Below are positions 27,326 through 45,201 of a DNA stretch of 64,000 nucleotides, piece after piece. Each line of letters begins with the position of its first letter. Positions within the stretch are counted from its first letter, which is position 1. Location: the NCBI RefSeq assembly GCF_000745185.1, contig NZ_JQNJ01000001.1:496001-560000 (forward strand), written 5' to 3'. Origin of the DNA: Muricauda sp. MAR_2010_75. Its GTDB lineage: Bacteria > Bacteroidota > Bacteroidia > Flavobacteriales > Flavobacteriaceae. The translations under genes and the position numbers were made by a program. The notes beneath the pieces were generated by a model. The model did not search any database. It was not told the origin of the DNA and saw only the letters and a list, made by a program, of their open reading frames with translations.

Positions 27326-27349
27326 ACATAACTTTAAAAACTCACTAAA

Positions 27350-29023: not shown

Positions 29024-29051
29024 AAACAAGTATCACTACCTTCATTTTTAT

Positions 29052-29087: not shown

Positions 29088-29187
29088 TTTATCGATAAAT
29101 ATTTATTGGGAATTTGAAGGGTTCTAAAAGTGGCCATTTTCATGATGAAGGGCAACTAAAATTTTGATTCCAAAAAAACAACGAACA

Positions 29188-30591
29188 ATGAAAAAAGCAA
29201 GTTCAAACCAAAGAAGGTCTTTTATAAAAAAGCTATCGGGAACCGCATTGTTGGCAGGGACAACACCCACTTTGATGTTGGGAAATTCAAAGGACAGGCC
29301 CTATTTTGCCATCAATGAGCCCCAAAGAAAATATACTCCTAACGATACCATCCAAATAGCGACCATTGGAATGGGCATCCAAGGATTCAACGATACCCGT
29401 GCAGCCTTGGCTACACCGGGAACAAAACTAGTGGCAGCTTGTGATCTCTACGAAGGGAGGCGAAAACATGCCAAAGAAGTCTTTGGCAAGGATATATTCA
29501 CCACAAATGATTATAAAGAAGTTTTAAAAAGGAGCGATATTGATGCCGTTATCATAGCCACGCCCGATCATTGGCACGATCGGATTTCCATGGATGCCAT
29601 GGACCACGGCAAAGCTGTTTATTGTGAGAAACCGATGGTACACAACATCGAGGAAGGATGGGCCGTCATTGAAAACCAAAGGAAGAACAACAAAGTGTTC
29701 CAAGTGGGCAGTCAACGGGTAAGTTCTTTGGTCTATAAAAAAGCAAAGGAACTGTACGACGATGGAGCAATAGGGGAATTGGTACTGGCCGAAACCTGGA
29801 ACGACCGTCAATCGAACCTTGGTGCCTGGAATTATTCCATACCATTGGATGCCTCACCGGAAACCATTGACTGGGACCGCTTTTTGGGAGATGCACCAAA
29901 GATTGCCTTTGACCCCATACGTTTTTTTAGGTGGCGAAACTATCAGGACTATGGCACCGGTGTGGCCGGAGACCTGTTCATCCATCTATTCTCCGGTATC
30001 CACTATGTTATCGGCTCCTCCGGCCCCTCCAAAATGTACACTACCGGAGGCCTTCGCTATTGGAAGGATGGCCGTGATGTGCCCGATGTCATGATTGGGT
30101 GTTATGATTATCCTGAGAGCAAAAACCACCCTGCGTTCAATATGCAGATCCGTGTAAACTTCATTGATGGTGGAGGTGGTGGGGGAAGAATCCGATTGGT
30201 GGGCACCGAAGGGGTCATGACCGTAGGCGGGAACTCCGTCAGGGTCACCCGGAGCAAAGTATCCGATCAACCCGGATACGATGGTTGGGACTCATTCGAT
30301 ACGTTTGACGAGGCCAATCAACGGGAATTCGAAAAATGGTACAAACAAAAATATCCCACTCCTCCGGCCAATGTTGCGGAAAGCGGCGAAATGGAGTTCA
30401 GGATCAGCAACAACTATAGTGATCATGAGGACCATTTCTCTAACTTTTTCGATTCCATGCGCACGGGCAGTACCGTAGTGGAAGATGCTGTTTTTGGGTT
30501 CCGTGCCGCTGCCGCTGCCCTAGGGGCCAACAAAAGTTATTTTGAGCAAAAAATAATACATTGGGATCCAGAGGCTATGAAATTTGTTTAG
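29188..30591 (+). CDS. Tat-exported Gfo/Idh/MocA-family oxidoreductase
   Basis: I choose the ATG at 29188 (467 residues) over 29164, because it places a Tat signal at the N-terminus (QRRSFIKK followed by a hydrophobic stretch). The Rossmann motif GMGIQG and the conserved EKPMV segment identify the family. Members bind NAD(P), often tightly, and oxidise or interconvert sugars and glycosides. A Tat signal implies export of the folded, cofactor-loaded protein to the periplasm. It is followed after about 100 bp by the second ASPIC/FG-GAP lipoprotein gene. Exported Gfo/Idh proteins next to ThuA and TIM-barrel proteins are known from 3-keto-glycoside pathways in Bacteroidota; that role here is inference. 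Confidence 0.88.
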   Translation: MKKASSNQRRSFIKKLSGTALLAGTTPTLMLGNSKDRPYFAINEPQRKYTPNDTIQIATIGMGIQGFNDTRAALATPGTKLVAACDLYEGRRKHAKEVFGKDIFTTNDYKEVLKRSDIDAVIIATPDHWHDRISMDAMDHGKAVYCEKPMVHNIEEGWAVIENQRKNNKVFQVGSQRVSSLVYKKAKELYDDGAIGELVLAETWNDRQSNLGAWNYSIPLDASPETIDWDRFLGDAPKIAFDPIRFFRWRNYQDYGTGVAGDLFIHLFSGIHYVIGSSGPSKMYTTGGLRYWKDGRDVPDVMIGCYDYPESKNHPAFNMQIRVNFIDGGGGGGRIRLVGTEGVMTVGGNSVRVTRSKVSDQPGYDGWDSFDTFDEANQREFEKWYKQKYPTPPANVAESGEMEFRISNNYSDHEDHFSNFFDSMRTGSTVVEDAVFGFRAAAAALGANKSYFEQKIIHWDPEAMKFV

Positions 30592-30692
30592 AAGCGATGG
30601 TATTGGCCAAATCATGACATTTCCAAAAACTTCCTTACAAATAACATAGATAGTTTAGAAAGTGAATCACTTAAAAACTTTTTGTCCATATT

Positions 30693-33600
30693 ATGACCAA
30701 GACCCTGATTAAAAGCCTTCTCTTTCTGGCAATATCCATTTTTCTGTCAGCTTGCACGAATCAAAATCCTGAGAGCGAAACAAAAAGGTTCACATTGCTT
30801 GACAGTGCATCCACCGGAATCACCTTCACCAACCAATTAACAGAGAGCGATTCCTTAAATTACTTCACATACCAGTACATGTACATGGGTGGTGGCACTG
30901 CTATTGGTGACATCAACAATGACGGCCTTGCCGATATTTTCCTAACCGGAAATATGGTGGACAACAAGCTTTACCTGAACAAGGGAGGAATGAAATTCGA
31001 GGATATTACCCAAACTGCAGGAATCAGCGGTGATTCCAGGTGGTATACAGGTGTGAGCCTTGTGGATATCAACAATGATGGCCACTTGGACATCTATCTT
31101 AGTGTTTCAGGGAAAAATGGGAACAAAAGCAATCAACTCTATGTCAACAATGGGGACCTGACTTTTTCGGAAAGAGCTGGAGAATATGGTATAAACGACA
31201 ATGGCCAATCCATACAATCCACATTTTTTGACTATGACAAAGACGGGGATCTGGATTTATTCGTCATCAATTATCCCATAACGGACTTTAAAACGGCCAA
31301 TACGGTATATCGAATGATGATAAACCGGGCGGATATGGCAAAGAGCGATCATTTGTACACCAACAACGGCGACGGTACATTTACCAATGTTACTGAAAAG
31401 TCCGGTTTACTGAATTTTGGTCTCTCGGTGAGTTCCTCCATTGCGGATTACAACAACGACGGATGGGACGACATCTACGTTTCCAATGATTTCAGTACCC
31501 CGGATTACCTCTATATCAATAATGGGGATGGCACTTTTACCGATAAACTGAGCGAAGCCACAAAACAGGTTTCGTTTTACGGGATGGGTACGGACGCCGA
31601 AGATGTGAACAATGATGGATTATTGGACCTCGTCCAAATGGATATGGCCCCGGAGGACAATCGGCGTTCAAAGGCCAATATGGCCAGCATGAATGTCGGT
31701 CTTTTTTGGAGCACGGTCAACCATGGGTTCCATTACCAGTACATGTACAACTCTTTTCAGCTCAACCAAGGCATGGATGCCGATGGTCTTCCTATTTTTA
31801 GCAACATTGGATGGATGGCCGGCATTTCCTCCACGGATTGGAGCTGGGGTCCCCTGATAGCCGATTTTGACAATGATGGTTGGAAAGACTTGTTCATCAC
31901 CAACGGAACCCGTAGGGAAATCAACAACAAGGACTTTTTTAAGAACCTTGAAAAAGACCATGTTGACCTCAATAAGGCCTCTTTGGTCGATTTGGTCAAT
32001 GAGATGCCCTCAGAAAAAATTGACAACTATATTTTCAAGAATACCAATGGGCTACAGTTCAAAAAAGTAAACGAGGATTGGGGCCTGACCTATAAAGGGT
32101 TTTCCAACGGGGCCGCCTATGGTGACCTGGACAATGACGGAGACTTGGATTTGGTGGTGAACAATATAGATGATACGTGTCGTGTGTTCCAGAACAATAC
32201 CTCAGAAATCAAGGATGGGCATTACCTAAGGGTTAAACTGGTATCAGATCAACCAAACCACATGGGTATTGGTACCAAGGTAACGGTCATAAGTGGCGGC
32301 CTGACCCAATTTTTCCATTTGAATCCAACCAAAGGGTTCCAATCCTTTATGGAGCCAGTGCTTCATTTCGGCTTGGGGAAGAGCAACAAGATCGATTCAT
32401 TGATGGTGGATTGGAGCGATGGTTCCCGGGAAGTTTCCGTGGACATCAATGCGGACCAGACCCTAACCTTCACCAAAGGTGAAAATCAAAAACAGGAAAG
32501 ACCTGAAGCCACGATGGAACAGATGTTCCAATTGACCCTTCAGAAATTTGACACGATTTTCTGGCACAGTGAAAACCCCTACAACGATTTTGGCAAACAA
32601 GTACTGCTTCCGCACAAATTATCAAATTTTGGTCCCGCCATGGCCGTTGCCGATATCAATGGGGACGGACTTGATGATATCTTCGTAGGAAATGGCGCCG
32701 GATTTCCAGCGGCCATGTATGTACAGCAACCTGATGAAACTTTTGTTTTGACACATGGAATCTGGGAACAGGACAAAAAATATGAGGACTTGGGTGCCCT
32801 ATTCTTTGATGCCAATAATGATGGCAACCAGGATCTGTATGTTGTCAGTGGAGGCAATGGGTTTACGGATGAGGAAATGTTCCAGGACAGGCTATACTTG
32901 AACTTCAATGGTACTTTTCAGAAATCGGAAGGGATCCTGCCAAAGATCACGGGAAGCGGTTCCCGTGTAATTCCATCGGACATTGATCATGATGGGGATA
33001 TCGATCTCTTTGTGGGGGGAAGGATCTCACCACAAAATTATCCAAATCCAGGTCGAAGCTACTTGCTGGTCAACCAAATGGACCAAGGTGTTCCAAAATT
33101 TGTGGATGCCACGGATGAACTGGCCCCTGGGCTGGCTGATATCGGCATGGTCACCGATGCGCTTTGGAATGATTTTGATGAAAATGGCACCACGGACCTA
33201 ATTGTGGTGGGGGAATGGTTGCCCTTGACCATTTATAGTCAGGAAAATGGAAGATTCATCGACAGGACATCGGATTTTGGTTTTGCGGATACCACAGGGT
33301 GGTGGTCCAGTATCGACGGTGCGGATTTCGATAAGGACGGTGATGTCGATATCATTGTCGGCAATCTCGGATTGAACTATAAATATCAGGCGACCCCAGA
33401 GGCCTCCTTTGAGTTATACGCCAATGATTTTGATGAGAACGGAAACACGGATATTGCCCTCGGATATCACAATGAAGGAGTTCTATACCCGGTAAGGGGA
33501 CGGCAATGCTCCTCAGAACAAATACCGGCAATCCAACTTAAGTTCAAGGATTACAATTCGTTTGCCCAAGCTTCTTTGGAAGAAGTATATGGCAAGGAAA

Positions 33601-34013
33601 ATCTCAAGGAGTCCCAACATTTTACCGTAAAGTCCTTCGCCAGTGTCTTACTGGAAAACAAGGGGAAGGGCAGCTACGAATCAAAGCAACTTCCTTTGAT
33701 GGCCCAATTATCTCCCATCAACGATATTTTGATCGAGGACTTCAACAATGATGGCCTTCTCGATGTGATCATCGGAGGCAATCTGTACGCGTCAGAAATC
33801 GAGACCCCTCGCAACGATGCCTCAATAGGCCTACTGTTACTGGGTGATGGTGAATGTGGTTTTAGCCCAATGCCCTATTCCAAAAGTGGGATAAACATGG
33901 CATATGACGTTAAGACCCTTGGCTTGATAAAGAAGGACAATGGATTCAGCGTAGTGATTGCCAACAACCAAGGACCATTGGAATTACTTTCACAGTCATT
34001 CCCTGTTCCTTGA
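30693..34013 (+). CDS. ASPIC/UnbV and FG-GAP (VCBS) repeat surface lipoprotein, copy 2
   Basis: This 1106-residue lipoprotein (lipobox LSAC) has the same architecture as the protein at 8182-11481: N-terminal FG-GAP repeats (DINNDGLADIFL, DYDKDGDLDLF, DYNNDGWDDIY), an ASPIC/UnbV domain in the middle (GIGTKVTVISGG, TKGFQSF, VDWSDGS) and a second set of repeats (DINGDGLDDIFV, DIDHDGDIDLFV, DFDKDGDVDIIV). The two are clear paralogues along their full length. One copy lies with each susCD pair, which argues for a role tied to SusCD-mediated uptake. No catalytic residues are recognised. Confidence 0.85.
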   Translation: MTKTLIKSLLFLAISIFLSACTNQNPESETKRFTLLDSASTGITFTNQLTESDSLNYFTYQYMYMGGGTAIGDINNDGLADIFLTGNMVDNKLYLNKGGMKFEDITQTAGISGDSRWYTGVSLVDINNDGHLDIYLSVSGKNGNKSNQLYVNNGDLTFSERAGEYGINDNGQSIQSTFFDYDKDGDLDLFVINYPITDFKTANTVYRMMINRADMAKSDHLYTNNGDGTFTNVTEKSGLLNFGLSVSSSIADYNNDGWDDIYVSNDFSTPDYLYINNGDGTFTDKLSEATKQVSFYGMGTDAEDVNNDGLLDLVQMDMAPEDNRRSKANMASMNVGLFWSTVNHGFHYQYMYNSFQLNQGMDADGLPIFSNIGWMAGISSTDWSWGPLIADFDNDGWKDLFITNGTRREINNKDFFKNLEKDHVDLNKASLVDLVNEMPSEKIDNYIFKNTNGLQFKKVNEDWGLTYKGFSNGAAYGDLDNDGDLDLVVNNIDDTCRVFQNNTSEIKDGHYLRVKLVSDQPNHMGIGTKVTVISGGLTQFFHLNPTKGFQSFMEPVLHFGLGKSNKIDSLMVDWSDGSREVSVDINADQTLTFTKGENQKQERPEATMEQMFQLTLQKFDTIFWHSENPYNDFGKQVLLPHKLSNFGPAMAVADINGDGLDDIFVGNGAGFPAAMYVQQPDETFVLTHGIWEQDKKYEDLGALFFDANNDGNQDLYVVSGGNGFTDEEMFQDRLYLNFNGTFQKSEGILPKITGSGSRVIPSDIDHDGDIDLFVGGRISPQNYPNPGRSYLLVNQMDQGVPKFVDATDELAPGLADIGMVTDALWNDFDENGTTDLIVVGEWLPLTIYSQENGRFIDRTSDFGFADTTGWWSSIDGADFDKDGDVDIIVGNLGLNYKYQATPEASFELYANDFDENGNTDIALGYHNEGVLYPVRGRQCSSEQIPAIQLKFKDYNSFAQASLEEVYGKENLKESQHFTVKSFASVLLENKGKGSYESKQLPLMAQLSPINDILIEDFNNDGLLDVIIGGNLYASEIETPRNDASIGLLLLGDGECGFSPMPYSKSGINMAYDVKTLGLIKKDNGFSVVIANNQGPLELLSQSFPVP

Positions 34014-34249
34014 TCCAAAAAAGCAATAACATGTAAAAACCTTCACTGAAGAATACTCCGAATGGAACAGGGTTCACATGTTCCAAAATCTCGGGCATGT
34101 ATCCCGACCAATGCATTCACAAAAGATATAATTTCAACCTTTAATAACAGCTTTTCTACCTAACAAGTGACGGGGCTCCCTAATATTGTCCTATCTAAAT
34201 TTTAACTGATCAAGAATTTATCATTTCACTAAAATCCGCTCTTAAACTC

Positions 34250-35764
34250 ATGAAAAATACGATTACTTTACTTTCGTTGTTCCTATTATCCCTAATCACA
34301 ATGGCTCAAGAAAATCCAATAGGCATTTTCCAATACAACAAAGATATCGGCAATCCTAAATTGGCCGGTTCGGCCGCATATAATGATGCCACCCAAACCT
34401 ACACCATTAAAGGTGCTGGATATAACATATGGGGACAACGCGACGAGCACCGTTACCTGTACAATAAGGTCAAGGGTGATTTCATTGCCACGGGCAACTT
34501 CAAATTTGAAGGCATCAACGAGGTGCATCGAAAGATTGGTTGGATGGCCCGTGCCTCGGAAGATGACAATTCGGTCATGGTTGGGGGATTTTTACACGGT
34601 GATGGCCTGACCGCTGGTCAGTGGAGGGAACGAAAAGGAGCGGCCATGCAAAATCCCTTTGATGATGTTTGGGCCGCCAAATCCTACTACGATATCATCC
34701 AATTGGAAAGGCGGGGCAATACCTTTATTGTCAGGGCTGCCCATGAGGGAGAACCCCTTCAACTCATAAGCTCAAAAAAGTTGGAGTTCATGCCGGAAGA
34801 AGTCTTGTTGGGAATCGTTATTTGTTCCCATGTTGAGGATGTCATTGAAAGTGCCAACGTATGGAATGTGCGGATCGACCAGCCGGTTGCCGAAGATTAT
34901 GATCCAAGTGCCGAAGGGTGGATCGGGTGTAGATTGGAAACTATGAATGTTTTTGATGGCAAACGTAAGGTCATCTTTGAAAAGGACAGTCGTTTTGAGG
35001 CACCCAACTGGATGCCAAACGGCGATGAACTGTTGTTCAACATGGAAGGATCACTTTATACCATACCAGTGTCCGGAGGCGAACTGGAAAAGTTGAATAC
35101 CGGCTCGGCGGACAGATTGAACAACGACCATTGTATTTCCTTCAATGGGAAGTTGTTGGGCATTAGCCACAACGATGGCAATGGCTCCAATGTATTTTAT
35201 TTACCACTTGAGGGCGGGGAACCTGAACCTGTGACAACGACCCCCCCTTCCTACCTCCACGGATGGGCCCCAAACAACAGGGACTTGGTATATGTGGCCA
35301 GGCGCAATGGATCTGACATCTATGATATCTACAAAAAATCGATTCGGGGCGGAAATGAGGTGAAGCTCACCAATAATGGGAAGTTGGAACATGTTGACGG
35401 ATGTGAGTATTCCCCTGATGGAAAATACATTTACTACAACGGGTCCAAAAATGGCGGAACCATGCAGTTGTGGCGAATGAAACCTGATGGTAGTCAAAAA
35501 GAACAGTTGACCTTTGACCAATATAACGATTGGTTCCCCCATATTTCCCCGGATGGAAAATGGATCGCCTTTATTTCTTTTATGCCTGACATTACGTTGA
35601 ACGCACACCCATCATACAAAAGGGTAATGTTACGGTTGATGCCAACTTCGGGAGGTGCACCAAAAGTGATTGCGTATTTGTATGGAGGCCAAGGAACCAT
35701 CAATGTAAATTCTTGGTCACCTGACAGTAAGCATATAGCATTTGTTAGCAATTCGGGTAAATGA
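34250..35764 (+). CDS. Secreted ConA-like (DUF1349-type) plus TolB/PD40 propeller protein, copy 1
   Basis: The 504-residue protein has a signal peptide (ending MAQ). Residues 20-210 form a jelly-roll-like domain with KVKGDFIATGNFKFEG, HRKIGWMARAS and SVMVGGFLHGDG, resembling DUF1349 or ConA-like sugar-binding domains. Residues 220-500 carry PD40/WD40-like TolB repeats (EYSPDGKYIYYN, HISPDGKWIAFIS, SWSPDSKHIAFVS). The combination suggests a glycan-binding module on a propeller scaffold; the biochemical role is unknown. A homologue of similar layout lies on the opposite strand at 37731-38981. Confidence 0.75.
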   Translation: MKNTITLLSLFLLSLITMAQENPIGIFQYNKDIGNPKLAGSAAYNDATQTYTIKGAGYNIWGQRDEHRYLYNKVKGDFIATGNFKFEGINEVHRKIGWMARASEDDNSVMVGGFLHGDGLTAGQWRERKGAAMQNPFDDVWAAKSYYDIIQLERRGNTFIVRAAHEGEPLQLISSKKLEFMPEEVLLGIVICSHVEDVIESANVWNVRIDQPVAEDYDPSAEGWIGCRLETMNVFDGKRKVIFEKDSRFEAPNWMPNGDELLFNMEGSLYTIPVSGGELEKLNTGSADRLNNDHCISFNGKLLGISHNDGNGSNVFYLPLEGGEPEPVTTTPPSYLHGWAPNNRDLVYVARRNGSDIYDIYKKSIRGGNEVKLTNNGKLEHVDGCEYSPDGKYIYYNGSKNGGTMQLWRMKPDGSQKEQLTFDQYNDWFPHISPDGKWIAFISFMPDITLNAHPSYKRVMLRLMPTSGGAPKVIAYLYGGQGTINVNSWSPDSKHIAFVSNSGK

Positions 35765-35814
35765 GAGTTTAAGTTAGTTTTTTTTTAGTTTAGTTATTAC
35801 CAAGTTTGAATTGC

Positions 35815-35847
35815 ATGAGAAGGAAGGTCACCAGCTTTCCTTCTCAT
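35815..35847 (+). terminator. Rho-independent terminator between the ConA/TolB gene and the ThuA-like gene
   Basis: An 11-bp stem ATGAGAAGGAA / TTCCTTCTCAT with an 11-nt loop is followed by TTTTT. Confidence 0.8.
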
Positions 35848-35883
35848 TTTTCCAAGCGAATCAAAAACAAAATTTTCTAAGAC

Positions 35884-36735
35884 ATGAAGAAAAAAACAAA
35901 TTTCCCTATTGAACTCAATTGCAAAAGCAAAAAGAAATGTCTGTTCTTTCATTTTGGAACACTTCTGTTTGTATTCCTTTTTTTTACTGAAAGCACTGTG
36001 GCACAAAAACAGTTCAAGGCCCTATTGATCACAGAAACTGCCGGTTGGCACCATGAATCCATTCTCAATGGTATTCAGGCCTTGGAAGAACTTGCACTGA
36101 CCCATAATTTTGAACTCCACCGACAACAAGAGGCCAGAAATATTACGGATGAAGGCCTTAAAGAATATGACGTGGTCATTTTTTTAAGTACCACGGCCAA
36201 TATCTTCGATAACGGGGAACAGGCTGCTTTTGAAAGGTATATCAGATCAGGCGGGGGATATGTGGGCATCCATGCCGCATCCGATACAGAGTATGAGTGG
36301 GAATGGTACACCCAACTGGTAGGACGTATGTTCCACATCCATCCCGTCCAACAAACTGCCAAACTAAAAATAGTCGACCATAATTTCCCCGGCCTTGAAC
36401 ACTTTCCCGAAACCCTGTTGTGGACGGACGAGTGGTATGAATTTGGCAAAGAAAATGTGAGTGGATTGAACTATCTCATCAGTGTAGATGAAAATACCTA
36501 TGACCCAGAGGTGATTTGGGCCGATCGGGACCTGACTGCCTCCGGTGAAAAAGTCGACCGTGTTGGCAGGGGAATGGGCGATTTTCATCCCATAGCATGG
36601 TACCATGAATTTGATGGAGGTCGTGCATTTTACACGGCCCTTGGGCATATTGAAAAAACATATCAAAACCCATGGTTCTTGGCACATCTCTATGGTGGTA
36701 TTTTTTATGCCGCTACCGGCAAAGGAATTGAATAA
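35884..36735 (+). CDS. Exported ThuA-like domain protein
   Basis: This 283-residue protein has an N-terminal signal (hydrophobic core LFVFLFFTESTVAQ, preceded by an unusually long basic stretch) and one ThuA domain: ALLITETAGWHHES, DVVIFLSTTANIF, GGGYVGIHAASDTEYEW, and GRMFHIHP later on. ThuA-like proteins have a class I glutamine amidotransferase-like fold and occur in trehalose and 3-keto-glycoside use; their activity is poorly defined. Only 19 bp separate it from the TIM-barrel gene, so they are probably co-expressed. Confidence 0.85.
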   Translation: MKKKTNFPIELNCKSKKKCLFFHFGTLLFVFLFFTESTVAQKQFKALLITETAGWHHESILNGIQALEELALTHNFELHRQQEARNITDEGLKEYDVVIFLSTTANIFDNGEQAAFERYIRSGGGYVGIHAASDTEYEWEWYTQLVGRMFHIHPVQQTAKLKIVDHNFPGLEHFPETLLWTDEWYEFGKENVSGLNYLISVDENTYDPEVIWADRDLTASGEKVDRVGRGMGDFHPIAWYHEFDGGRAFYTALGHIEKTYQNPWFLAHLYGGIFYAATGKGIE

Positions 36736-36754
36736 CAACAAAAATTTAAATAGG

Positions 36755-37594
36755 ATGATTACACGAAAAGAATTTTTATGGCAATCAGGGGCCTTTACTT
36801 TGGGAGCCCTGCTCCTGCCTTCTGCCTGCGCAATGGGTGGAAATAACGTAAAACAGGAATTGGGTATCCAACTGTACACTTTTAGAGATCAAATGGTGAA
36901 AGATCCGAAAGGTACTTTGGAACAGATAGCCAAAATAGGAATCAAAAAAATTGAGACCGCAAGGAGCAATAAGGGTCATTATTATGGACTGTCCCCAAAA
37001 GATATGAAATCCACCTGCGAGGCTTTGGGGATGAAATTGGTGAGTGGACATATCCATCTGGATGACCAGTGGGAACAGACCATTGAGGAGGCCGTAGCTT
37101 CCGGACAGGAGTATCTTATCTGTTCCACCATGCCCACCAATGGACAAACATCCGACAATTACAAAAAAGTGGCCGATGCCTTCAATAAGGCGGGAGAAGA
37201 CTGCAAGGCGGCAGGACTCAAGTTTGGGTACCATAACCATGAATATGAGTTTGAATCCCACAATGGAGAGGTCCTATATGATGTACTTTTGGACAATACG
37301 GATGCCGACCTTGTGCACATGGAACTCGATCTGGGTTGGGCCGTGGTGGCGGGCAAGGACCCGTTGGATTATTTCAACCGATATGAAGGTCGTTTTCCCC
37401 TATGGCACCTCAAAGATATGAACATGGAAGAAAAGGTGAGCACCGAATTTGGAAAGGGCGGTCTGGATGTTCCCCTTATGTTAAAAAATTCAGAGAAATC
37501 CGGTGTAAAACATATTTTCATTGAGCAGGAAGAATATGCAACAACCCCTTTGGAAAGTATGCGTCACAATATGGAATATTTGGGCAATTTATAG
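36755..37594 (+). CDS. Exported sugar phosphate isomerase/epimerase-like TIM barrel
   Basis: I place the start at the ATG at 36755 (279 residues). It gives an exported N-terminus (RKEFLWQSGAFTLGALLL ending in a lipobox-like PSAC); a longer open frame from 36605 overlaps the ThuA gene and is unlikely. The xylose isomerase-like TIM barrel shows LGIQLYTFRDQM, GYHNHEYEFE, MELDLGWA, LWHLKDMN and FIEQEEY, with metal-binding His and Glu positions intact. Related exported proteins act in 3-keto-sugar pathways or as epimerases. The substrate is unknown. Confidence 0.85.
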   Translation: MITRKEFLWQSGAFTLGALLLPSACAMGGNNVKQELGIQLYTFRDQMVKDPKGTLEQIAKIGIKKIETARSNKGHYYGLSPKDMKSTCEALGMKLVSGHIHLDDQWEQTIEEAVASGQEYLICSTMPTNGQTSDNYKKVADAFNKAGEDCKAAGLKFGYHNHEYEFESHNGEVLYDVLLDNTDADLVHMELDLGWAVVAGKDPLDYFNRYEGRFPLWHLKDMNMEEKVSTEFGKGGLDVPLMLKNSEKSGVKHIFIEQEEYATTPLESMRHNMEYLGNL

Positions 37595-37634
37595 ATAGGG
37601 TCTTGCCAAGCAATAATGCAACCCATTGAATACA

Positions 37635-37666
37635 AAAAAGCAGCCTTAACCCAAAGGCTGCTTTTT
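37635..37666 (+). terminator. Rho-independent terminator after the TIM-barrel gene
   Basis: A 13-bp stem AAAAAGCAGCCTT / AAGGCTGCTTTTT around a 6-nt loop. It lies between convergent genes, with A- and T-rich ends, so it may act on both strands. Confidence 0.85.
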
Positions 37667-37730
37667 GTTGACCAAATGGCCGCCGGTTCGTTCCATAGTT
37701 TTATAAAACGTACAGCCATGCAGCATTTCA

Positions 37731-38981
37731 CTATTGTGACGTGCTCACGAAAACCAAGGATTTACTGTCAGGGGACCACGCATATTGATCAAAACTGCCC
37801 TTACCCCCATAGAAATGTGCAATGGTCTTCGGCGCCCCCGCCCCAGTTGGCATGATTTTGATACTTACGTTCTGGAACCGCACTGGTTCATCAGGTTTGG
37901 CATCATGTGGCATTGACAGAAAGGCCACCCATTTCCCATCTGGTGATAGATGTGGGTACCAAGAATGGTCCAAACCGTGTGTCAATTGAACAGGCTCATT
38001 GCCATTGGCCCGTTTTCGCCAAATTTGATTGGTCGATCTTTTCCCCTCATTATAATATACAAACTTGGCTTTGCCCTTTCTTTCTGGCCCGTCCATTCTA
38101 TCTTCCGCCACTATGGGGGCGCCCCGTCCATTGACGGGAACGGAATAACTTCTATTCCCATCAAGGAAATAAATGGCTTTTCCATCCTTTGAAAAACTTG
38201 GGGAGGCCAACCCATGATCCGATATGTGTAGAACGTTCCTTTTTCCGGTTTCTATATCAACGGTTTCCACCCTGCTTCCCCTGACCACTCCTTCATGTGA
38301 TGCTGTTTCCACCAAATGGTTTGGGTGCCAATTAGGGGCAACGGGTTTGGAAATCCGCACATTCCATATTTTGGCCGTTTGACGATCCTCAGGATCATGG
38401 GCCAACACATAGGGCCCAACCAGAACCTCATCCTTTAAATCGGGCATGGTCAGGGTCTCCATTTCTTCCAAGGGTTCACCGGGATGGGCAATCCGCATGG
38501 TAACGGAATTTCCCAAACGTTCCAATTGTATGATACTCTCCCCAAAATACTGTTTGGGGAAAAATATCTCATCCTCGGGATCTCGCATATAGGCCCCACT
38601 CATCAAACGCCATTGCAGTACCACCAATCCATCTCCGTGCAAACAGGAATTGATGCTTACGGCATCATCTTCGGTAGATTCCCGTATCATCCACCCCGTC
38701 TTTCGATGGCCGTTGCCATCTTCGTTTCCTACAAGTTCAAAATTGGCCGTTAGGATAAAATCCCCTTTTATTTTCTTAAAGAGAAAATGGAACTCATCAT
38801 GGTTGAACCAAATATTACTGCCCCCTCCTGTCAAGGTATAGGTCTGGGTGGCCTCATCATATGTGGAAGATCCCGTTACGGCCGGATCACCGATGTCCAA
38901 GGCCTGCTCGAAATCCCCAATTTGGGCAAAGCAACCCATGGTGGAAAATACAATGCAAATACTCAATCTTAATTTTTTCAC
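37731..38981 (-). CDS. Secreted ConA-like (DUF1349-type) plus TolB/PD40 propeller protein, copy 2
   Basis: The 416-residue protein has a signal peptide (ending CFAQ), an N-terminal ConA/DUF1349-like domain (KIKGDFILTANFELVG, HRKTGWMIRES, NSCLHGDGLVVLQWR) and a shorter TolB-type propeller (SFSKDGKAIYFLDG, HLSPDGKWVAFLS, AWSPDSKSLVFVS). It matches the protein at 34250-35764 in domain order, but is about 90 residues shorter, with fewer propeller repeats. The two copies converge around the ThuA and TIM-barrel genes. Confidence 0.75.
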   Translation of the reverse strand: MKKLRLSICIVFSTMGCFAQIGDFEQALDIGDPAVTGSSTYDEATQTYTLTGGGSNIWFNHDEFHFLFKKIKGDFILTANFELVGNEDGNGHRKTGWMIRESTEDDAVSINSCLHGDGLVVLQWRLMSGAYMRDPEDEIFFPKQYFGESIIQLERLGNSVTMRIAHPGEPLEEMETLTMPDLKDEVLVGPYVLAHDPEDRQTAKIWNVRISKPVAPNWHPNHLVETASHEGVVRGSRVETVDIETGKRNVLHISDHGLASPSFSKDGKAIYFLDGNRSYSVPVNGRGAPIVAEDRMDGPERKGKAKFVYYNEGKRSTNQIWRKRANGNEPVQLTHGLDHSWYPHLSPDGKWVAFLSMPHDAKPDEPVRFQNVSIKIMPTGAGAPKTIAHFYGGKGSFDQYAWSPDSKSLVFVSTSQ

Positions 38982-39348
38982 GATAGTACTGATTTTTTAA
39001 ATAAGGTTTCGATGCACACTTGTCCAGAATTTTGGAGGGGTCGCATCATTTAAAGACAAGGCTAAATGTAATTCCCGTAATCTTGGAAGAGGTTAAATAT
39101 TTACAATTTATGGTCGAAATTTTATCGGAATTGATGCGTGGGATTGCCCTGAAAAGAAATAGGCCCTGAAAACCTAGCTACTAACCAACCTTTGATAAAG
39201 GATATCCCATCCCAAATAAGGAATTAACCTGACTTCGATCCCTATCAAAAAATGGATAGTAAGTATAGGTGTCGGACTAAAAAACCTTTGAAAGAACCTA
39301 TATACCCATGACCAGCATACAATCGCCAATTGTCTTCATTATTTGATG
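38982..39348 (-). other. 367-bp gap without recognised content
   Basis: I see no gene, RNA or clear promoter here. It separates two minus-strand genes. Confidence 0.5.
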
Positions 39349-40515
39349 CTAGCCGACCTCCCTTTTTTCTTTGCTCACGGATTCAGCCAAACCTCGCATA
39401 TACCCAATGGCAAACAAGTTCCCAAGATCCATATATCCAGGTCTTTTATTCTCCTCCCCCGCCATGGTTGGAACATGGTCAGCGCGCATCGCACCTTTAA
39501 AACCAATGTCATAATAGGCCCTCATGGCCTCATACATATCGATATCTCCCTCATCATGGAAAGTTTCGGTAAATTTGGTACTGGGCAATTCTCCACTGAG
39601 TTCCCTGACATTTCTAAAATGTACAAAGTGTATTTTACCCGCATTTCCCCATCGCCTGATCAATGTTGGGATATCAGGCCCCATTAGAGAAAAATTTCCC
39701 TGGCACATGGTAATTCCATTGTAATCGCTTGCAATGATATCCAACATCCGATCGAAATTCTCCACAGTGTTCATGATCCTGGGGATTCCCTGTATGCTGT
39801 GTACTTGTGGATCATCTGGGTGTAAGGCCAACTTCATACCGATCTGCTCTGCCTCGGGGACCACTGCCCTTAAAAAATACCCTAGGTTGTCCCATAGCGT
39901 CTCTTTGGTGAATTCTCCATACTCGGTCAAAGGTTTGTCCTTTACCGCATCATAATCAAAGGCGGTCATTAGGGCTCCGCCCCTTCCCAGTCTGGCCATG
40001 TCGGTCCTCGCCCAACTAATGACCGGCATCCAATTATAGCAGATCACATCCACCCCAGCTTTTTTTACGTTCTTCATAAAGGTGATGAAGTTCTCTATTT
40101 CTTCATCCTTTCCCTCCAAGCCCAGTTTTGTCTTATTGCCCAAAGATGGGGGGCCTTCTACCACATTATACTTGAGCCCGACAGATTTCCAGGCATCCAC
40201 CACATCTTTTATGGATTCATACTCCCAGGGTTTTCCATTAGGATTCCTAAAAAGTCTTCCATCTATCCCGGCCACTGCACCATAAGCACCCATTTGTTTC
40301 GCCAATTCTATTAAATAGGCATGGGCTTCCATTCCCCAGAAGTACGCGTTGCTCATTTCTATCCCTGCATCCTTTGAAAGCCCGTTCAATTCTGCAGTTT
40401 GCTTTATATTTTTTTGTGCTTGGTGTCCTGAACGGGCATATGCAATACCCCCTAAGGAGGCCATGGCCGCCATAGAGGCACTTTTTTTTATGAAACTTCT
40501 CCTATTTTTCTTCAT
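39349..40515 (-). CDS. Tat-exported mannonate dehydratase-like (UxuA-type) TIM-barrel protein
   Basis: I choose the ATG at 40515 (388 residues), which begins MKKNRRSFIKK, a Tat signal. The TIM barrel shows metal-site motifs like those of UxuA-type mannonate dehydratase: H232 in LHPDDPQ, C271 in ITMCQGN, H299 in HFVHFRNV, and the acidic DEGDIDM segment. UxuA removes water from D-mannonate to give 2-keto-3-deoxygluconate, normally in the cytoplasm, so a Tat signal is odd. It may act on oxidised mannosides in the periplasm, or be a related isomerase or dehydratase. It is divergent from the GMC gene. Confidence 0.75.
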   Translation of the reverse strand: MKKNRRSFIKKSASMAAMASLGGIAYARSGHQAQKNIKQTAELNGLSKDAGIEMSNAYFWGMEAHAYLIELAKQMGAYGAVAGIDGRLFRNPNGKPWEYESIKDVVDAWKSVGLKYNVVEGPPSLGNKTKLGLEGKDEEIENFITFMKNVKKAGVDVICYNWMPVISWARTDMARLGRGGALMTAFDYDAVKDKPLTEYGEFTKETLWDNLGYFLRAVVPEAEQIGMKLALHPDDPQVHSIQGIPRIMNTVENFDRMLDIIASDYNGITMCQGNFSLMGPDIPTLIRRWGNAGKIHFVHFRNVRELSGELPSTKFTETFHDEGDIDMYEAMRAYYDIGFKGAMRADHVPTMAGEENKRPGYMDLGNLFAIGYMRGLAESVSKEKREVG

Positions 40516-41197
40516 CTGTTCGTTGATTATCAATTATTGTTCTGGCCTTGAACCAGTACCCCGCAATATCATGGAAGCACCATATGGCATTCCCATACCG
40601 AATGACCTTACCGTTCCCTGGGATTTTCCTTTAAGGCTGGCAACACGGCACCTATAAATCCGGTAACCAAAAAGCAGTGAACAGCCCCCTATAACTGTGC
40701 TTTTCCTTTTTTCCATTTCCTTATCAAATCGGAAACACCCGAACCAATTTGCTGTTGCGTCCCCAATAAAAATAACAAAGTTTTTCTGTTCATCGGTTCA
40801 TCCCAACCCCGCATCGTTGAAAGCGTCAAACCGTTTGGGAGCCTAGCTCTATTTCACATTTTGCCAGAGCCATTCCCCGTTGATCCCTGAATCGCCCACG
40901 TCCCTATCGATTAAAAACCCGGCTCCAAACTTTTGCAATAAACAGAGAATATCTAAGCCATCCCATAGTCTTGTGACCCACCAATTTTCAAACTACTGGA
41001 ACCATTGCAGACCAGTTTTTCACAAGATCGTTACCCAATACGTTGTGAACGGGAGTTGTTCCTGTGGAAAAGTATGGCTTGTCCATCAGCTCTCTTACAA
41101 CTATTTTGTCATTCTATTAACCTTTTTGTTCAGATACAAAGAAATCATCATTAGTTCCCTTCATATTTTTATACTTTGGCAAAAAAATAAACAATTA
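40516..41197. other. Divergent region between the UxuA-like and GMC genes
   Basis: These 682 bp hold no supportable gene. An open frame of about 60 codons on the minus strand (40534-40716) ends 18 bp before the UxuA-like start but has no recognisable content. An open frame upstream of the GMC gene, in frame from 40880, does not look like protein. Promoters for both genes are expected here. Confidence 0.45.
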
Positions 41198-42919
41198 GTG
41201 CAGATAATAGAATCTTCAGTTGTCTATGATGTCATCATTGTAGGCTCTGGTGCAGGAGGTGGAATGGCCACCAAAATTCTCTCTGAGGCTGGATTGAAGG
41301 TGGCCGTTGTCGAGGCCGGCCCCTTCTTTGATCCGGCAGACCCTGAACAAAGAACCCAAATGAGATGGCCCTATGAGTCTCCGAGGAGGGGCGCGAACAC
41401 AAAGAGACCATTTGGTGATTTCGACTCAGCCTATGGGGGATGGGAAATAGAGGGGGAACCTTATACGAATGCCGAGAACAGCAATTTCAGATGGTTCCGC
41501 TCCCGGATGTTGGGGGGACGTACCAACCATTGGGGACGGATTTCGCTCCGTTTTGGTCCTCGGGATTTCAAAGGAAAGGACCATGATGGTCTGGGAGAGA
41601 ATTGGCCCATTGGATATGAGGATGTAAAACCCTATTACGACAAAGTGGATAAACTGATCGGTGTCTTCGGGACCAATGAAGGTTTGCCCAACGACCCTGA
41701 TGGGTTCTTTCTTCCTCCCCCAAAACCAAGGTTACATGAACTCTTCTTTATAAAAGGTGCAAAAAAATCGAACATTCCGGTGTATCCATCCAGGATGTCC
41801 ATGCTTACCAAGAGAATCAATAACGACAGGGGGGTCTGTTTCTACTGCGGGCAATGCTCAAGGGCCTGCCAGATCTATGCTGATTTTTCCTCTGGCACTT
41901 GTTTGATATTCCCGGCCCAAAAGAATGGTGGCCAGATAGACCTTTTTGTGAACTGTATGGTACGTGAGGTAACCACGGACCAAGAGGGGAAGGCCACAGG
42001 GGTTTCCTATATCAGCAAGGAGGACAGGAAGGAATACAAATTAAGGGGAAAAATAGTGGTGTTGGCCGCATCTGCCTGCAGCACCGCAAGAATACTTTTA
42101 AATTCAAAGAGCAGGCAACATCCAAATGGTTTGGGCAACAGCAGTGACATTGTCGGGAAGTACCTCCATGATTCAACCGGGACAGGCAGAGCTAGTTTTG
42201 TACCCGATCTCATGAACAGAAAACCTACCTACAATGAGGATGGTGTTGGGGGCATGCACATCTACACACCTTGGTGGTTGGACAATAAGAACTTGGATTT
42301 TCCAAGGGGATACCATCTAGAGATATGGGGAGGCATGAAGATGCCGGCATATGGTTTTGGTTTCGATCCAAACGAATTCAATACATTCTTTGGCCTCACG
42401 GTAGGCGGGTATGGAAATAGCTTGCGAAAGGATGTCAAAAAGTATTATGGTTCCATCGTGGGCATGTCGGGAAGGGGGGAATCGATACCACAAAAAAGCA
42501 ACTACTGCGAAATTGACGACACAAAAGTTGATGAATTCGGCATACCCGTTCTCAAGTTCAACTATCAATGGACCGACAATGAAATCAGGCAAGTAAAGCA
42601 CATGCATGACACATTTGAAGAAATCTTCCACAATATAGGGGCAGAACCCTTGGGCGAAAGACCTAGTGAAGAGCAAAACTTTGGTATCGAGGCCCCCGGT
42701 ATGATAATCCATGAAGTGGGCACCACCCGTATGGGTGATGATGAAAAGACCTCCGTGGTCAACAGCCACCAACAATTGCATGATGTGGACAACGTGTTTA
42801 TTGTGGATGCGGGACCCTTTGTGTCCCAAGCGGACAAGAATCCAACATGGACCATCTTGGCGCTCTCATGGAGAACCTCAGACTATATTGTGGAACAACT
42901 CAAACAGCAGAACATCTAG
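41198..42919 (+). CDS. GMC-family FAD-dependent oxidoreductase (glycoside/gluconate dehydrogenase flavoprotein)
   Basis: The most likely start is the GTG at 41198 (573 residues), which begins MQIIESS right before the FAD dinucleotide-binding motif VIIVGSGAGGGMA; the open frame extends upstream without a plausible protein. Other features are GGRTNHWGR, a cysteine-rich FYCGQCSRAC segment, and the C-terminal HEVGTTRMG and NPTWTILALSWR blocks that carry the catalytic His and Asn. This branch of GMC proteins pairs with a small subunit and a c-type cytochrome to oxidise sugars or glycosides, for example at C3. The small subunit gene follows after 2 bp. Confidence 0.85.
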   Translation: MQIIESSVVYDVIIVGSGAGGGMATKILSEAGLKVAVVEAGPFFDPADPEQRTQMRWPYESPRRGANTKRPFGDFDSAYGGWEIEGEPYTNAENSNFRWFRSRMLGGRTNHWGRISLRFGPRDFKGKDHDGLGENWPIGYEDVKPYYDKVDKLIGVFGTNEGLPNDPDGFFLPPPKPRLHELFFIKGAKKSNIPVYPSRMSMLTKRINNDRGVCFYCGQCSRACQIYADFSSGTCLIFPAQKNGGQIDLFVNCMVREVTTDQEGKATGVSYISKEDRKEYKLRGKIVVLAASACSTARILLNSKSRQHPNGLGNSSDIVGKYLHDSTGTGRASFVPDLMNRKPTYNEDGVGGMHIYTPWWLDNKNLDFPRGYHLEIWGGMKMPAYGFGFDPNEFNTFFGLTVGGYGNSLRKDVKKYYGSIVGMSGRGESIPQKSNYCEIDDTKVDEFGIPVLKFNYQWTDNEIRQVKHMHDTFEEIFHNIGAEPLGERPSEEQNFGIEAPGMIIHEVGTTRMGDDEKTSVVNSHQQLHDVDNVFIVDAGPFVSQADKNPTWTILALSWRTSDYIVEQLKQQNI

Positions 42920-42921
42920 AA

Positions 42922-43641
42922 ATGGACAGGAGAAAAAGTTTAAAATCAATCATATTTGGTGGTGTTGCAACAGGTTTGGCGGCCCATGGGTGCAAACCCG
43001 ATATGATAAGTGTGGACAATGAGATCATTGAGTCCCCAAAATACACTTATGGAAGGACACCAGAGGAAAAAGCCCATGACGATGAACTCTTTGGGGAAAC
43101 ATTCTTCAATGCGCATGAGATGGAGACCATCGCCATACTTTGTGATCTGATTCTCCCCGCCGATCAAGACCAAGGATTGCAAAGTGCAACGGATGCAAAC
43201 GTTCCGGAATTCATAGAGTTCATGTCCAAGGATATCCCAGAAATGCAGATTCCCCTGAGAGGGGGCTTGATGTGGTTGGACCATAGGTGCAATGTTGACC
43301 ATAATACCCCATTTAAATTGGCAACATTGGAGCAACAGGAAGCCCTCTTGGATACGATTGCCTATCCGGACCCGGTGATACCAGATGAAGAGCAACCTCT
43401 CGAAAAACAGTTCTTTTCCCTGTTGCGAAATCTTACCTTGACGGGATATTACACTTCCAAAATTGGAATTGAGGAATTGGGGTATCAGGGCAACACACCC
43501 AATGTATGGGATGGAGTGCCAGACCATATCTTGGCCCAGCATGGTATTTCCTACGACGAGGAGTGGTTGGCAAAATGCGTGGACCAAAGCCAACGGAACA
43601 CCACAGCGGAATGGGATCAAGATGGAAACCTGTTGACCTGA
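42922..43641 (+). CDS. Gluconate 2-dehydrogenase subunit 3-like small subunit
   Basis: The ATG at 42922, 2 bp after the GMC stop, gives 239 residues. The N-terminus DRRKSLKSIIFGGVATGLAAHGC looks like a Tat and possible lipoprotein signal, which would carry the folded GMC partner across the membrane. The conserved core AILCDLILPADQ and the later ADQ/DPVIP and FFSLLRNLTLTGYYTS segments match the family. It has no cofactor of its own; it acts as export chaperone and structural subunit of the flavoprotein complex. Confidence 0.88.
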   Translation: MDRRKSLKSIIFGGVATGLAAHGCKPDMISVDNEIIESPKYTYGRTPEEKAHDDELFGETFFNAHEMETIAILCDLILPADQDQGLQSATDANVPEFIEFMSKDIPEMQIPLRGGLMWLDHRCNVDHNTPFKLATLEQQEALLDTIAYPDPVIPDEEQPLEKQFFSLLRNLTLTGYYTSKIGIEELGYQGNTPNVWDGVPDHILAQHGISYDEEWLAKCVDQSQRNTTAEWDQDGNLLT

Positions 43642-43671
43642 GGGAAGCATGTATTTTGGCTGTCAGTTCAA

Positions 43672-45201
43672 TTACAGCTGCTTGTGGATCGTCCTATTTT
43701 CAAGATATAAAATGTCAAAATCATTTTCTTCCCTAAATGATAGACTCTTCAACACATTAAAGTTTCCCAACATAAGGTCAACATCCCCGTCTTTATCAAA
43801 GTCTCCCTTATCCATGACAAGCCAATTCCCGGTCTTTGCCTTTTCGGTGACATAGGGTATAAAACTATAGGATATGGCATCCTGATTTTCCAGGTAAACA
43901 AATCCCTCTTCTGGATTGTTTTCAAAATCTGGGAAGAATGACATCGTGGCAAAGTCAATGTCCCCATCCAGGTCAAAATCATCCGCCAAAACCCGGGTCA
44001 CACCATTAATGGGATAGAACCACTCTTCGGTGAATTGATTTGCACCATTGTTCAAGTACAATCGAATCCCATGGTATGGTTTTAGAAAATTGGAATAATC
44101 TGCATTGTCCCCATTGGCCGTGACAATATCAAAATGACCATCTTTATTGTAATCCAACACGGAAAACCAACTAAGGCCATATTCGGGGGGAAGCCCAATC
44201 AACCGTTCGACATCAAACTGTAAGTCGTCTTTTTGGACAAAAGCGTATATTCCCTCCCTGCCTTGGGAAAACAGCGCTATGATATCTTTTTTCCCGTCAC
44301 CATCAATATCCAATATATCCACTTTTATGGCCCCTGGCAACTGCATTAATGTATTCTTGGCGAATGTTGAATCTTTTTTTACAAATAGGGAAAGTTCACC
44401 GGTAAGGTGCCCAAACTCACAAACAAGTATTTCATTTTGGCCATCCCCGTTCAAATCAACCACTTGACTGTAAACAGGTCTATGCAATTTTTCCATTCCG
44501 GGGATGGCCCCGCCACTTGCATGGTACATTTTCCCTTTTGGAATCTCACTTGGCCCCATTTTCCCCATTTCCGTGATATAAAGGGTATCCTGCCCTAGGA
44601 CAGTTAAAACCACTGGTGATTCAAAAAATTCAGCCATGGGCGATGGTTTCTGCCATTCATGAACCTGACCGAACACATCCCCGATGAACACCCTTCCACT
44701 TGCAGGATCAAATCCAATGTTGACGATGCCACCGGAAGGACCCATGTCCAATTTCCTTGGTACGGCATCAAATTGAACAAGTTTTGAAGATCTTCCCTTT
44801 CGTATTGGTAGGTTGGGAACACTATCCGGAGCCTGACTAAGAATATAATCCCGCAACCTTTCCCATGTCACACTGTCCAAAATGGGCTCTTCCGGATACG
44901 CATTGCTCAATCGAACATAATGGTTCTCTTCTATAGAATACTTGTAGGGGTTGAAATCGTCATAGCGATATCCCATCCGTGCGGCCATTTCGGGCAGCAC
45001 GTTCTTTTCCCAAATAGCTTTTGGAATATTTGACGGTTCGGGAGCGATGTGACAACTGCCGCAATACATTTGATATTCATCCGCAACACGAATCATCTCT
45101 CGGTTTCTCTTGGGGAAGAACAAAATCACATAAAAAATGCCAAAGATCAATACTGCAAGGGTCACTGGAAAGAACCGCTTTGTGTATTTCTTAACATCCA
45201 T
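43672..45201 (-). CDS. Membrane-anchored monoheme cytochrome c fused to FG-GAP repeats
   Basis: I use the ATG at 45201 (509 residues); an ATG at 45213 adds four. A transmembrane anchor lies near residues 10-29. A c-type heme motif CGSCH lies at 47-51 in the segment YCGSCHIAPEP. From about residue 110 to the end come FG-GAP/VCBS repeats (DLNGDGQNEIL, DIDGDGKKDII, DYNKDGHFDIV, DFDLDGDIDFA, DFDKDGDVDLM). The heme domain could take electrons from the GMC complex encoded convergently 30 bp away. The repeats suggest a calcium-binding propeller for substrate or partner binding. Confidence 0.8.
   Translation of the reverse strand: MDVKKYTKRFFPVTLAVLIFGIFYVILFFPKRNREMIRVADEYQMYCGSCHIAPEPSNIPKAIWEKNVLPEMAARMGYRYDDFNPYKYSIEENHYVRLSNAYPEEPILDSVTWERLRDYILSQAPDSVPNLPIRKGRSSKLVQFDAVPRKLDMGPSGGIVNIGFDPASGRVFIGDVFGQVHEWQKPSPMAEFFESPVVLTVLGQDTLYITEMGKMGPSEIPKGKMYHASGGAIPGMEKLHRPVYSQVVDLNGDGQNEILVCEFGHLTGELSLFVKKDSTFAKNTLMQLPGAIKVDILDIDGDGKKDIIALFSQGREGIYAFVQKDDLQFDVERLIGLPPEYGLSWFSVLDYNKDGHFDIVTANGDNADYSNFLKPYHGIRLYLNNGANQFTEEWFYPINGVTRVLADDFDLDGDIDFATMSFFPDFENNPEEGFVYLENQDAISYSFIPYVTEKAKTGNWLVMDKGDFDKDGDVDLMLGNFNVLKSLSFREENDFDILYLENRTIHKQL

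Follow-up and report, generated by a model that had tools for sequence, protein, structure and literature searches.

A 64,000-nucleotide stretch of the Muricauda sp. MAR_2010_75 genome (contig NZ_JQNJ01000001.1, positions 496,001 to 560,000; hereafter the window) carries, beside a beta-mannan locus, a block of genes at 29188-45201 that encodes an exported oxidative module centered on a flavoprotein dehydrogenase of the GMC family. This module is real and recurs together with mannan loci. From its protein families and their neighborhoods, we favor a reading in which the GMC enzyme would oxidize a glycoside at C3. The full statement, to which we assign a probability of about 0.5, is that the block serves beta-mannan use as an oxidative arm outside the cytoplasm, where C3 oxidation would be followed by cleavage by an exported TIM barrel, with a membrane cytochrome as the electron acceptor. 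Systems of this general kind are already known. The features of the variant are the class of its GMC enzyme, a fourth cysteine in that class, a single-heme FG-GAP cytochrome, and the coupling to mannan.

Gene content and export signals of the block

The window belongs to a genome of the Flagellimonas/Allomuricauda type, a single contig of 4.42 Mb (G000; labels in G and L denote genomes and loci). A first-pass annotation had listed a Gfo/Idh oxidoreductase, ThuA and TIM-barrel proteins, a GMC flavoprotein with its small subunit, a cytochrome c, and a UxuA-like protein. Pfam searches and coordinates found all of them in place, and the limits of the block, 29188 and 45201, are the start codons of the Gfo and cytochrome genes. 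That list lacked an ASPIC-type lipoprotein, a pair of DUF1349-TolB-like proteins, and a protein carrying the CxxCH motif twice. The block is not a single operon but four units with three strand changes. The forward strand from 24104 to 37594 encodes, in order, the SusC-type outer-membrane transporter of a second pair (SusC2, 24104-27325), whose homologues in several genera are transcribed divergently from the GMC unit; its SusD-type lipoprotein (SusD2, 27350-29023; PF07980, E 2e-43); the Gfo/Idh/MocA oxidoreductase (29188-30591; PF01408, E 7e-20); the FG-GAP/UnbV_ASPIC surface lipoprotein of this SusCD module, 1106 residues long (30693-34013; PF13517, PF07593); an exported DUF1349-like protein with a PD40/TolB-type beta-propeller (34250-35764); the ThuA-domain protein (35884-36735; PF06283, E 2e-65); and an exported xylose-isomerase-like TIM barrel (36755-37594; PF01261), a candidate 3-keto-glycoside lyase/hydratase. 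These are followed on the reverse strand by a paralogue of the DUF1349-PD40 protein (37731-38981; 42% identity) and the mannonate-dehydratase-like UxuA protein (39349-40515; PF03786, E 3e-84), on the forward strand by the GMC catalytic subunit (41198-42919; PF05199/PF00732) and its Gluconate_2-dh3 small subunit (42922-43641; PF13618, E 7e-34), and again on the reverse strand by the cytochrome (43672-45201) and a SASA-type carbohydrate esterase (45288-46709; PF03629, E 5e-21), which ends 86 bp from the cytochrome start. The GTG start of the GMC gene was deduced from comparison with L103.

Export signals were judged by eye from the N-termini and by pattern, with no predictor. Each protein of the block has an export or membrane signal, or a partner that has one. 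The N-termini of the Gfo, the UxuA-like protein, and the small subunit resemble signals of the twin-arginine translocation (Tat) pathway. For the first two, Tat export had been claimed in the first-pass annotation, and both indeed hold the motif RRSFIKK. Sec or lipoprotein N-termini were seen in the ThuA (Sec-type), TIM, ASPIC, and TolB-like proteins.

A GMC class marked by a fourth cysteine

The GMC protein has no signal peptide of its own and adjoins a small subunit with a twin-arginine, lipoprotein-like N-terminus, which is the arrangement of a Tat hitchhiker. Its nearest relative in PDB is the FAD-dependent glucose dehydrogenase of Burkholderia cepacia (BcGDH; E 2.5e-40), and fructose dehydrogenase is also among the matches. 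In a phmmer alignment, residues C216, C222, and C226 (counted from position 41192) of the GMC protein align to BcGDH Cys212, Cys218, and Cys222, given as 3Fe-4S ligands in passages of PMC6719666. The C-x5-C-x3-C pattern of Tat-hitchhiker FAD dehydrogenases is present, and an iron-sulfur cluster is predicted from it. An extra cysteine, C219, stands opposite BcGDH Asn215, making the site CxxCxxCxxxC (CFYCGQCSRAC, 41837-41869). This motif occurs in all 117 distinct full-length sequences compared from the window class. In the other GMC class, C-x5-C-x3-C is retained in 5/5 proteins and the fourth cysteine is found in 0/5; it is likewise absent from the eight other-class proteins of L279-L286 (loci L279-L298 were picked for proximity), from the L273 protein, and from a Pseudoalteromonas relative with 45% identity. 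We infer that enzymes of the window class would hold a [4Fe-4S] cluster.

The first-pass annotation had equated the GMC protein, small subunit, and cytochrome with the make-up of known glucoside 3-dehydrogenases. The extracytoplasmic set is indeed there, but its GMC protein is only 31-37% identical to the class of L122 and L123 and is split from it in the GMC tree with support of 100/100. We treat the latter class as presumably LacA-like on the basis of synteny, namely its PF06439 neighbors, and of homologues on plasmids of Halomonas, Xanthomonas, Paracoccus, and Catenovulum that are 54-59% identical to it. Of 395 genomes sampled from the Bacteroidota, 98 encode a match to the window GMC protein at E <= 1e-110. 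The closest named locus is that of Muricauda sp. CAU 1633 (96% over the GMC protein). Plasmid records label members of the class merely "GMC family oxidoreductase", and we found no description of it in the part of the open-licence literature that we covered. In one genome (G012, L292:8991-10938) the GMC gene lies in two overlapping frames beside a GH130 gene, as if frameshifted.

The small subunit accompanies the GMC gene in 79 of 80 named loci (80 of 187 confirmed stretches) by BLAST, and in 73 of 80 by local hidden Markov models (HMM) with a stricter choice of open reading frames (ORF); 105 of its 108 homologues have twin arginines near the N-terminus. In G000 it occurs in four places: the window, L121, and two beside the other GMC class. 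L121 (3.34 Mb) carries a GMC copy with 79% identity; around it, similarity picked out only one neighbor, a SusC-like gene some 4 kb downstream. L123 (around 1.62 Mb) carries an other-class pair with a TIM barrel, a nucleoside/sugar symporter, an MFS transporter, a Gfo, a second TIM barrel, and two PF06439 genes.

The candidate electron acceptor, the cytochrome at 43672-45201, is membrane-anchored by one hydrophobic helix and has one CxxCH motif and FG-GAP repeats (E 8e-19); its match to Pfam DHC is below threshold (E 0.0014). Exactly one CxxCH is also found in each of 18 homologue rows, among them the window's own copy and those of near relatives. The GMC operon of the window contains no multi-heme membrane cytochrome, and the single-heme protein lies on the opposite strand. 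A possible second electron carrier, a membrane-anchored protein of 538 residues with two CxxCH motifs (21769-23385, forward strand), sits 18 kb upstream, between the mannan regulator and SusC2; it is di-heme-peroxidase-like (PDB 1iqc, E 2e-4) and has no Pfam family above cut-off. A 7-heme cytochrome adjoins the window-class GMC in L288, L289, and L290. BLAST of the window cytochrome against a Catenovulum PVC-type CxxCH protein gave E 0.6 at best, and a structure model from a two-sequence alignment reached a predicted local distance difference test (pLDDT) of only 36. From 44 cytochrome matches, 14 contexts were picked, those in G063, G050, and G007 because coordinates hinted at neighbors. SusCD/ASPIC and/or GMC or TIM genes were found in five (L217, L219, L220, L226, L229), a common arrangement with PF06439 genes in six (L218, L221-L225), and none of these families in three (L227, L228, L230). 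In L294 and L295, too, a homologue has GMC, SusCD/ASPIC, or TIM genes beside it.

Linkage to genes of 3-keto-glycoside metabolism

We compared 40 diverse Bacteroidota GMC loci with 40 unpaired control regions, placed at round-number coordinates of 23 of these genomes, calling families with locally built few-seed HMM (cut-off 1e-12 to 1e-15). L211, where no GMC ORF was called, was kept in the denominators, and p-values are uncorrected for the 17 families compared. The 3-keto-disaccharide hydrolase family PF06439 (DUF1080) was found in the flanks of nine loci and in no control (one-sided Fisher p 0.0012), TIM barrels in eight versus two (p 0.04), and either of them in 12 versus two. PF06439 immediately precedes the GMC gene in L186, L188, L207, L208, and two Pseudoalteromonas records. 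These two records, of one genus and with the same flanks, show the operon Gfo-TIM-MFS-DUF1080-GMC-small subunit-TIM, with the GMC relative of 45% identity mentioned above. In the window's own genus, L288:3-19000 carries on one strand DUF1080-Gfo-Gfo-UxaC-7-heme cytochrome-GMC-small subunit-SusC-SusD-ASPIC.

The best PDB match of the window TIM barrel is 8tcd/8tcs, "sugar phosphate isomerase" (E 1e-40), and the Gfo matches 8tdf (E 6.5e-26). The connection with 3-keto-glycoside pathways, proposed in the first-pass annotation, holds for PF06439 and the GMC class in other genomes, in the Pseudoalteromonas operons and in L288, but the window, with its 8tcd-homologous TIM barrel, has no PF06439 gene.

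Linkage to mannan loci and to SusCD

Flanks of the 80 named loci contained GH130 in 13 cases, GH26 in two, sulfatases in 12, and TIM barrels in 16, against 0, 0, 0, and 2 in 40 regions of other genomes, which serve as a rough yardstick. Window-type GH130 (E <= 1e-100) occurs at 13 places in 12 of 148 genomes, own included. Three of the 12 (G012, G050, G058) have a window-class GMC no more than about 5 kb from it, and in G000 and G069 the distance is about 35 kb; for the remaining seven, the GMC is farther off, on another contig, or absent among the matches listed. Proximity in 3/12 genomes would have a rough chance of 3e-5 to 2e-4, supposing independent genomes.

The stretch of G050 (L226 and L293) encodes SusCD, a gene similar to kinases of 2-keto-3-deoxygluconate (KDG), a cytochrome homologue, and a sulfatase, and then GntP-TIM-small subunit-GMC-AraC; divergent to this GMC unit are the beta-mannan genes GH26-MFS-GH130-2-epimerase-SusCD. 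In G058 (L291, same contig as L042), GMC-small subunit-TIM-GntP stands beside GH26, GH130, and SusCD, and the cytochrome was not seen there. In G042 (L294), GH26, GH130, and SusCD are found with a TIM barrel and cytochrome and GMC is absent. GH92 genes adjoin the GMC gene in L287 and on a Hymenobacter plasmid. The congener G050 thus has its GMC unit beside a beta-mannan locus, with the same cytochrome nearby. Taken together, these loci show repeated coupling to glycans that contain mannose outside this species, chiefly in congeners. The mannan coupling first proposed for the window is supported by physical linkage in the congeneric loci L291 and L293, and in L294 for the partners other than GMC.

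ASPIC-type proteins recur with SusC2/SusD2-type pairs near GMC genes. Among 48 SusD2-type places listed, a window-class GMC lies within 15 kb in eight, the other class in at least nine, and the cytochrome within 20 kb in eight; at least 21 have a GMC or the cytochrome within these distances, and 27 have neither among the matches listed. The two GMC classes swap beside the same SusC2/SusD2/ASPIC transporter type, which suggests that they do a similar job.

Alternative explanations

Several observations weigh against C3 oxidation followed by cleavage in a mannan-linked module. Besides the lack of a PF06439 gene in the window, the family is found in the flanks of 0/80 named loci. The Gfo scores 135.9 bits against the glycoside 3-dehydrogenase family BT_2158_fam (NF058561), far below the cut-off of 750. 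TIM relatives right behind the GMC-small subunit pair in other Flavobacteriaceae are only 28-36% identical to the window TIM barrel (the TIM tree has long branches and was used for neighbors alone). In the 40 diverse loci, Gfo (10 versus 4 controls, p 0.07) and ThuA (5 versus 2, p 0.22) are not significant alone; SusC (7 versus 7), SusD (3 versus 4), and ASPIC (0 versus 1) are not enriched; the cytochrome and GH26 are found in 0/40 of either set. GH130 and sulfatases each occur in 2/40 loci and 0/40 controls. As SusCD, cytochrome, and GH26 genes are not enriched there, coupling to SusCD, cytochrome, and mannan genes is a feature of relatives of the window. Many Flagellimonas copies of the GMC-small subunit pair stand apart from such genes: they lie among OmpA/Nramp/S9-peptidase genes in 15 named loci and beside carotenoid-type genes in seven, with no recognized sugar genes. 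Finally, the whole block was found in two genomes only, G000 and its near relative G069 (L035).

One could ask if the opposite-strand units are unrelated genes with separate roles that gathered near a mannan locus, an accident that would account for the three strand changes, the restriction of the full block to two genomes, and the numerous GMC copies with no sugar genes around. Consistent with it, in the four genomes with close orthologues of the window TIM barrel, the Gfo orthologue is distant or on another contig. On the other side, L035 keeps the block order (identity of 98% for Gfo, 93% for UxuA, and 89% for the cytochrome), and subsets of the block recur across genera in differing orders, so the gene set is more than chance: GMC, small subunit, TIM barrel, SusC2/SusD2/ASPIC, and cytochrome recur, also beside GH26/GH130. 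We regard an accidental composite as quite improbable. Relatives of the DUF1349-TolB-like proteins are near GMC genes in five named loci (L054, L059, L065, L075, L083). A conserved pair of TolB-like protein and Gfo (L131, L132) was considered and dropped, because those TolB-like proteins share the propeller and not the DUF1349 domain.

A more serious challenge comes from genes of sugar-acid metabolism. The GMC enzyme might act at C1 of free mannose or of the reducing-end sugar of manno-oligosaccharides, giving an aldonolactone; mannonate would then be converted to KDG by the exported UxuA-like protein, and uptake and phosphorylation would follow. The UxuA-like gene is divergent to the GMC gene, and among solved structures the GMC protein is closest to a glucose dehydrogenase, which acts at C1. 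The UxuA-like protein scores 257 bits against NF003027 (cut-off 191), but 190.3 against TIGR00695, just under the cut-off of 199.55; it matches PDB 3ban/1tz9 (E 1e-46) and has the motifs HPDDP, ITMCxG, HxRN, and DH, in common with 3ban and presumably metal-binding. GntP, KDG-kinase-like, MR_MLE, and UxuA genes near relatives point to sugar acids. The order GMC-small subunit-TIM-GntP in G050 and G058 includes, in G050, a member of the gluconate:H+ symporter family (486 bits, cut-off 293), and the G050 PfkB protein has KDG kinase 2afb as its best PDB match (E 1e-67), although it is below NCBIfam cut-offs. L100 carries SBF and a KDG-kinase-like gene, the latter also below curated cut-offs, L070 an MR_MLE dehydratase with GH130 and GH26, and G010 (L133:2948-19278) the series SusC-SusD-UxuA (three copies)-MR_MLE-RraA-pyrroloquinoline quinone (PQQ) dehydrogenase with cytochrome c-SBF-KDG-kinase-like. 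Close orthologues of the window TIM barrel (63-71% identity) adjoin SMP-30/gluconolactonase genes in two of four genomes, and a sugar-acid (MR_MLE) dehydratase relative is near one of them.

Two side observations concern these loci. The G010 cluster resembles a separate aldonate route, and in L125 a gene of 361 codons beside a TIM orthologue has as its sole match PDB 9x86, "Amc20".

With such genes in mannan-linked relatives, C1 oxidation to aldonate is a live rival. Other counts weigh against it. Matches to the UxuA-like protein at E <= 1e-50 come from 3 of 148 genomes, G000 being one of them, and UxuA lies near the window-class GMC in G000 and G069 only, plus a 36% match in L056; it was also seen in 1/40 control regions. 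GntP, SBF, PfkB, and MR_MLE are each found in just one or two of the 80 named loci and in none of the 40 diverse loci, against PF06439 in 9/40. We consider oxidation at C1 possible, and clearly less probable than even. The acid genes may instead serve uronic-acid side chains: UxuA, UxaC, GntP, KDG kinase, and the sulfatases would process glucuronate from sulfated glucuronomannans, and the oxidative module would comprise only GMC, small subunit, cytochrome, TIM barrel, and SusCD. The presence of UxaC (glucuronate isomerase) in the L288 cluster and the sulfatases near GMC genes (12/80 named loci versus 0/40 control regions) fit this division of roles. A Tat-exported mannonate dehydratase would be odd in a cytoplasmic uronate pathway, though, and no uronyl hydrolase or lyase turned up among the window ORFs scanned, a part of the total. 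We deem this uronate branch unlikely. Because the sugar-acid signal fits either aldonates and KDG or uronate side chains, we speak of C3 oxidation as favored. Passages of PMC11036162 report that Maribacter on arabinogalactan expresses "gluconate dehydrogenases" and a mannonate dehydratase, with no link established to the window GMC class. Excerpts of PMC7409140 (GMC fold changes on xylan) and of PMC11003636 are not informative here.

Proposed route and implications

If C3 oxidation is correct, SusC2/SusD2 and the ASPIC lipoprotein would import oligosaccharides to the periplasm, where the GMC enzyme, exported via Tat together with its small subunit, would use FAD to oxidize a sugar hydroxyl, most likely at C3 of a glycoside. 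Its predicted Fe-S cluster would hand the electrons to the cytochrome c/FG-GAP protein in the membrane, which would feed them into respiration. Beta-elimination and hydration by the exported TIM barrel would then open the 3-keto-glycoside, and the Gfo/Idh, likewise exported and perhaps aided by ThuA, may handle the 3-keto sugar. For uptake and the last reduction, the cell could draw on the MFS, Gfo, and TIM proteins of the locus around 1.62 Mb, their location in the cell being presumed.

More tentatively, as we think it rather doubtful at this stage, the GMC enzyme might stand for a second, so far untested, class of periplasmic glycoside 3-dehydrogenases that are coupled to respiration. It would be predicted to hold a [4Fe-4S] cluster and to pass electrons to the single-heme FG-GAP cytochrome, and its integration in beta-mannan loci of marine bacteria would open a third route for mannan oligosaccharides beside hydrolysis and phosphorolysis. 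If the proposed route is true, part of marine mannan sugar is oxidized before cell entry and its energy goes directly to respiration, so that an account of such loci in terms of endo-enzyme, transporter, and phosphorylase, as is customary, leaves something out. Members of the GMC class are common in Bacteroidota and apparently uncharacterized, and the extra cysteine is a simple, testable mark of the class there.

Other features of the window

The beta-mannan locus at 65-21146 comprises GH9, two GH26, GH130, an ASPIC-type protein, SusD, SusC, and a hybrid two-component regulator, identified by Pfam or, for SusC and the ASPIC-type protein, by similarity to the second pair. A frame of 706 codons at 3390-5507 (forward strand) overlaps a GH26 gene and has no Pfam family even at E 1. 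Beyond the block, the forward strand encodes a HipA_C-domain protein (48313-49281) and an RND efflux trio (outer membrane factor, HlyD, and AcrB type; 54495-60274), followed by a sortilin/BNR-repeat protein reaching 63660.

Comparison with known systems

The window shares with BcGDH (6a2u; passages of PMC6719666) a GMC subunit with a hitchhiker subunit, three aligned Fe-S cysteines, and electron transfer, here predicted, to a cytochrome c. It differs by the extra cysteine of CxxCxxCxxxC, by a phenylalanine replacing Cys213, which in BcGDH forms the disulfide to the small subunit, and by a single-heme FG-GAP cytochrome in place of a three-heme subunit.

In Bacteroides, Nasseri et al. (2024) reportedly described an oxidation/elimination/hydration pathway encoded by BT2156-BT2160, from which we take PDB entries 8tcd/8tcs and 8tdf to derive. 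The exported Gfo and TIM barrel are common to both systems, the window TIM barrel matching 8tcd/8tcs and its Gfo 8tdf. In contrast to that pathway, oxidation in the window would probably be due to a respiratory FAD enzyme and not to a Gfo with bound NAD, in line with a window Gfo far below the BT_2158 family cut-off. PMC11300592 presents BT2158 as a periplasmic glycoside 3-dehydrogenase, PMC9007349 cites BT2157 as a 3-ketotrehalose hydrolase, and PMC11501099 reports no growth defect on the raffinose family upon deletion of BT2157 or BT2158.

For the LacABC-type glycoside 3-dehydrogenases of Caulobacter and Pedobacter, Price et al. (2022; PMC9007349) propose a periplasmic role in concert with DUF1080 proteins. 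They have in common with the window a GMC large subunit and periplasmic oxidation, and their PF06439, TIM, Gfo, and transporter neighbors are matched by the window GMC class in other genomes; G000 has a cluster of that kind in L123. The window GMC protein belongs to a separate class with the fourth cysteine, set apart by way of the L122/L123 class and not of the LacA sequence, and the window lacks PF06439 and adds the mannan coupling and the FG-GAP cytochrome.

Beta-mannan loci of Bacteroidetes carry GH26, GH130, a 2-epimerase, and SusCD. The window likewise has GH26, GH130, and SusCD at 65-16351, and L293 adds the epimerase and an MFS transporter. Unlike the usual loci of this kind, the one in the window has an oxidative unit attached.

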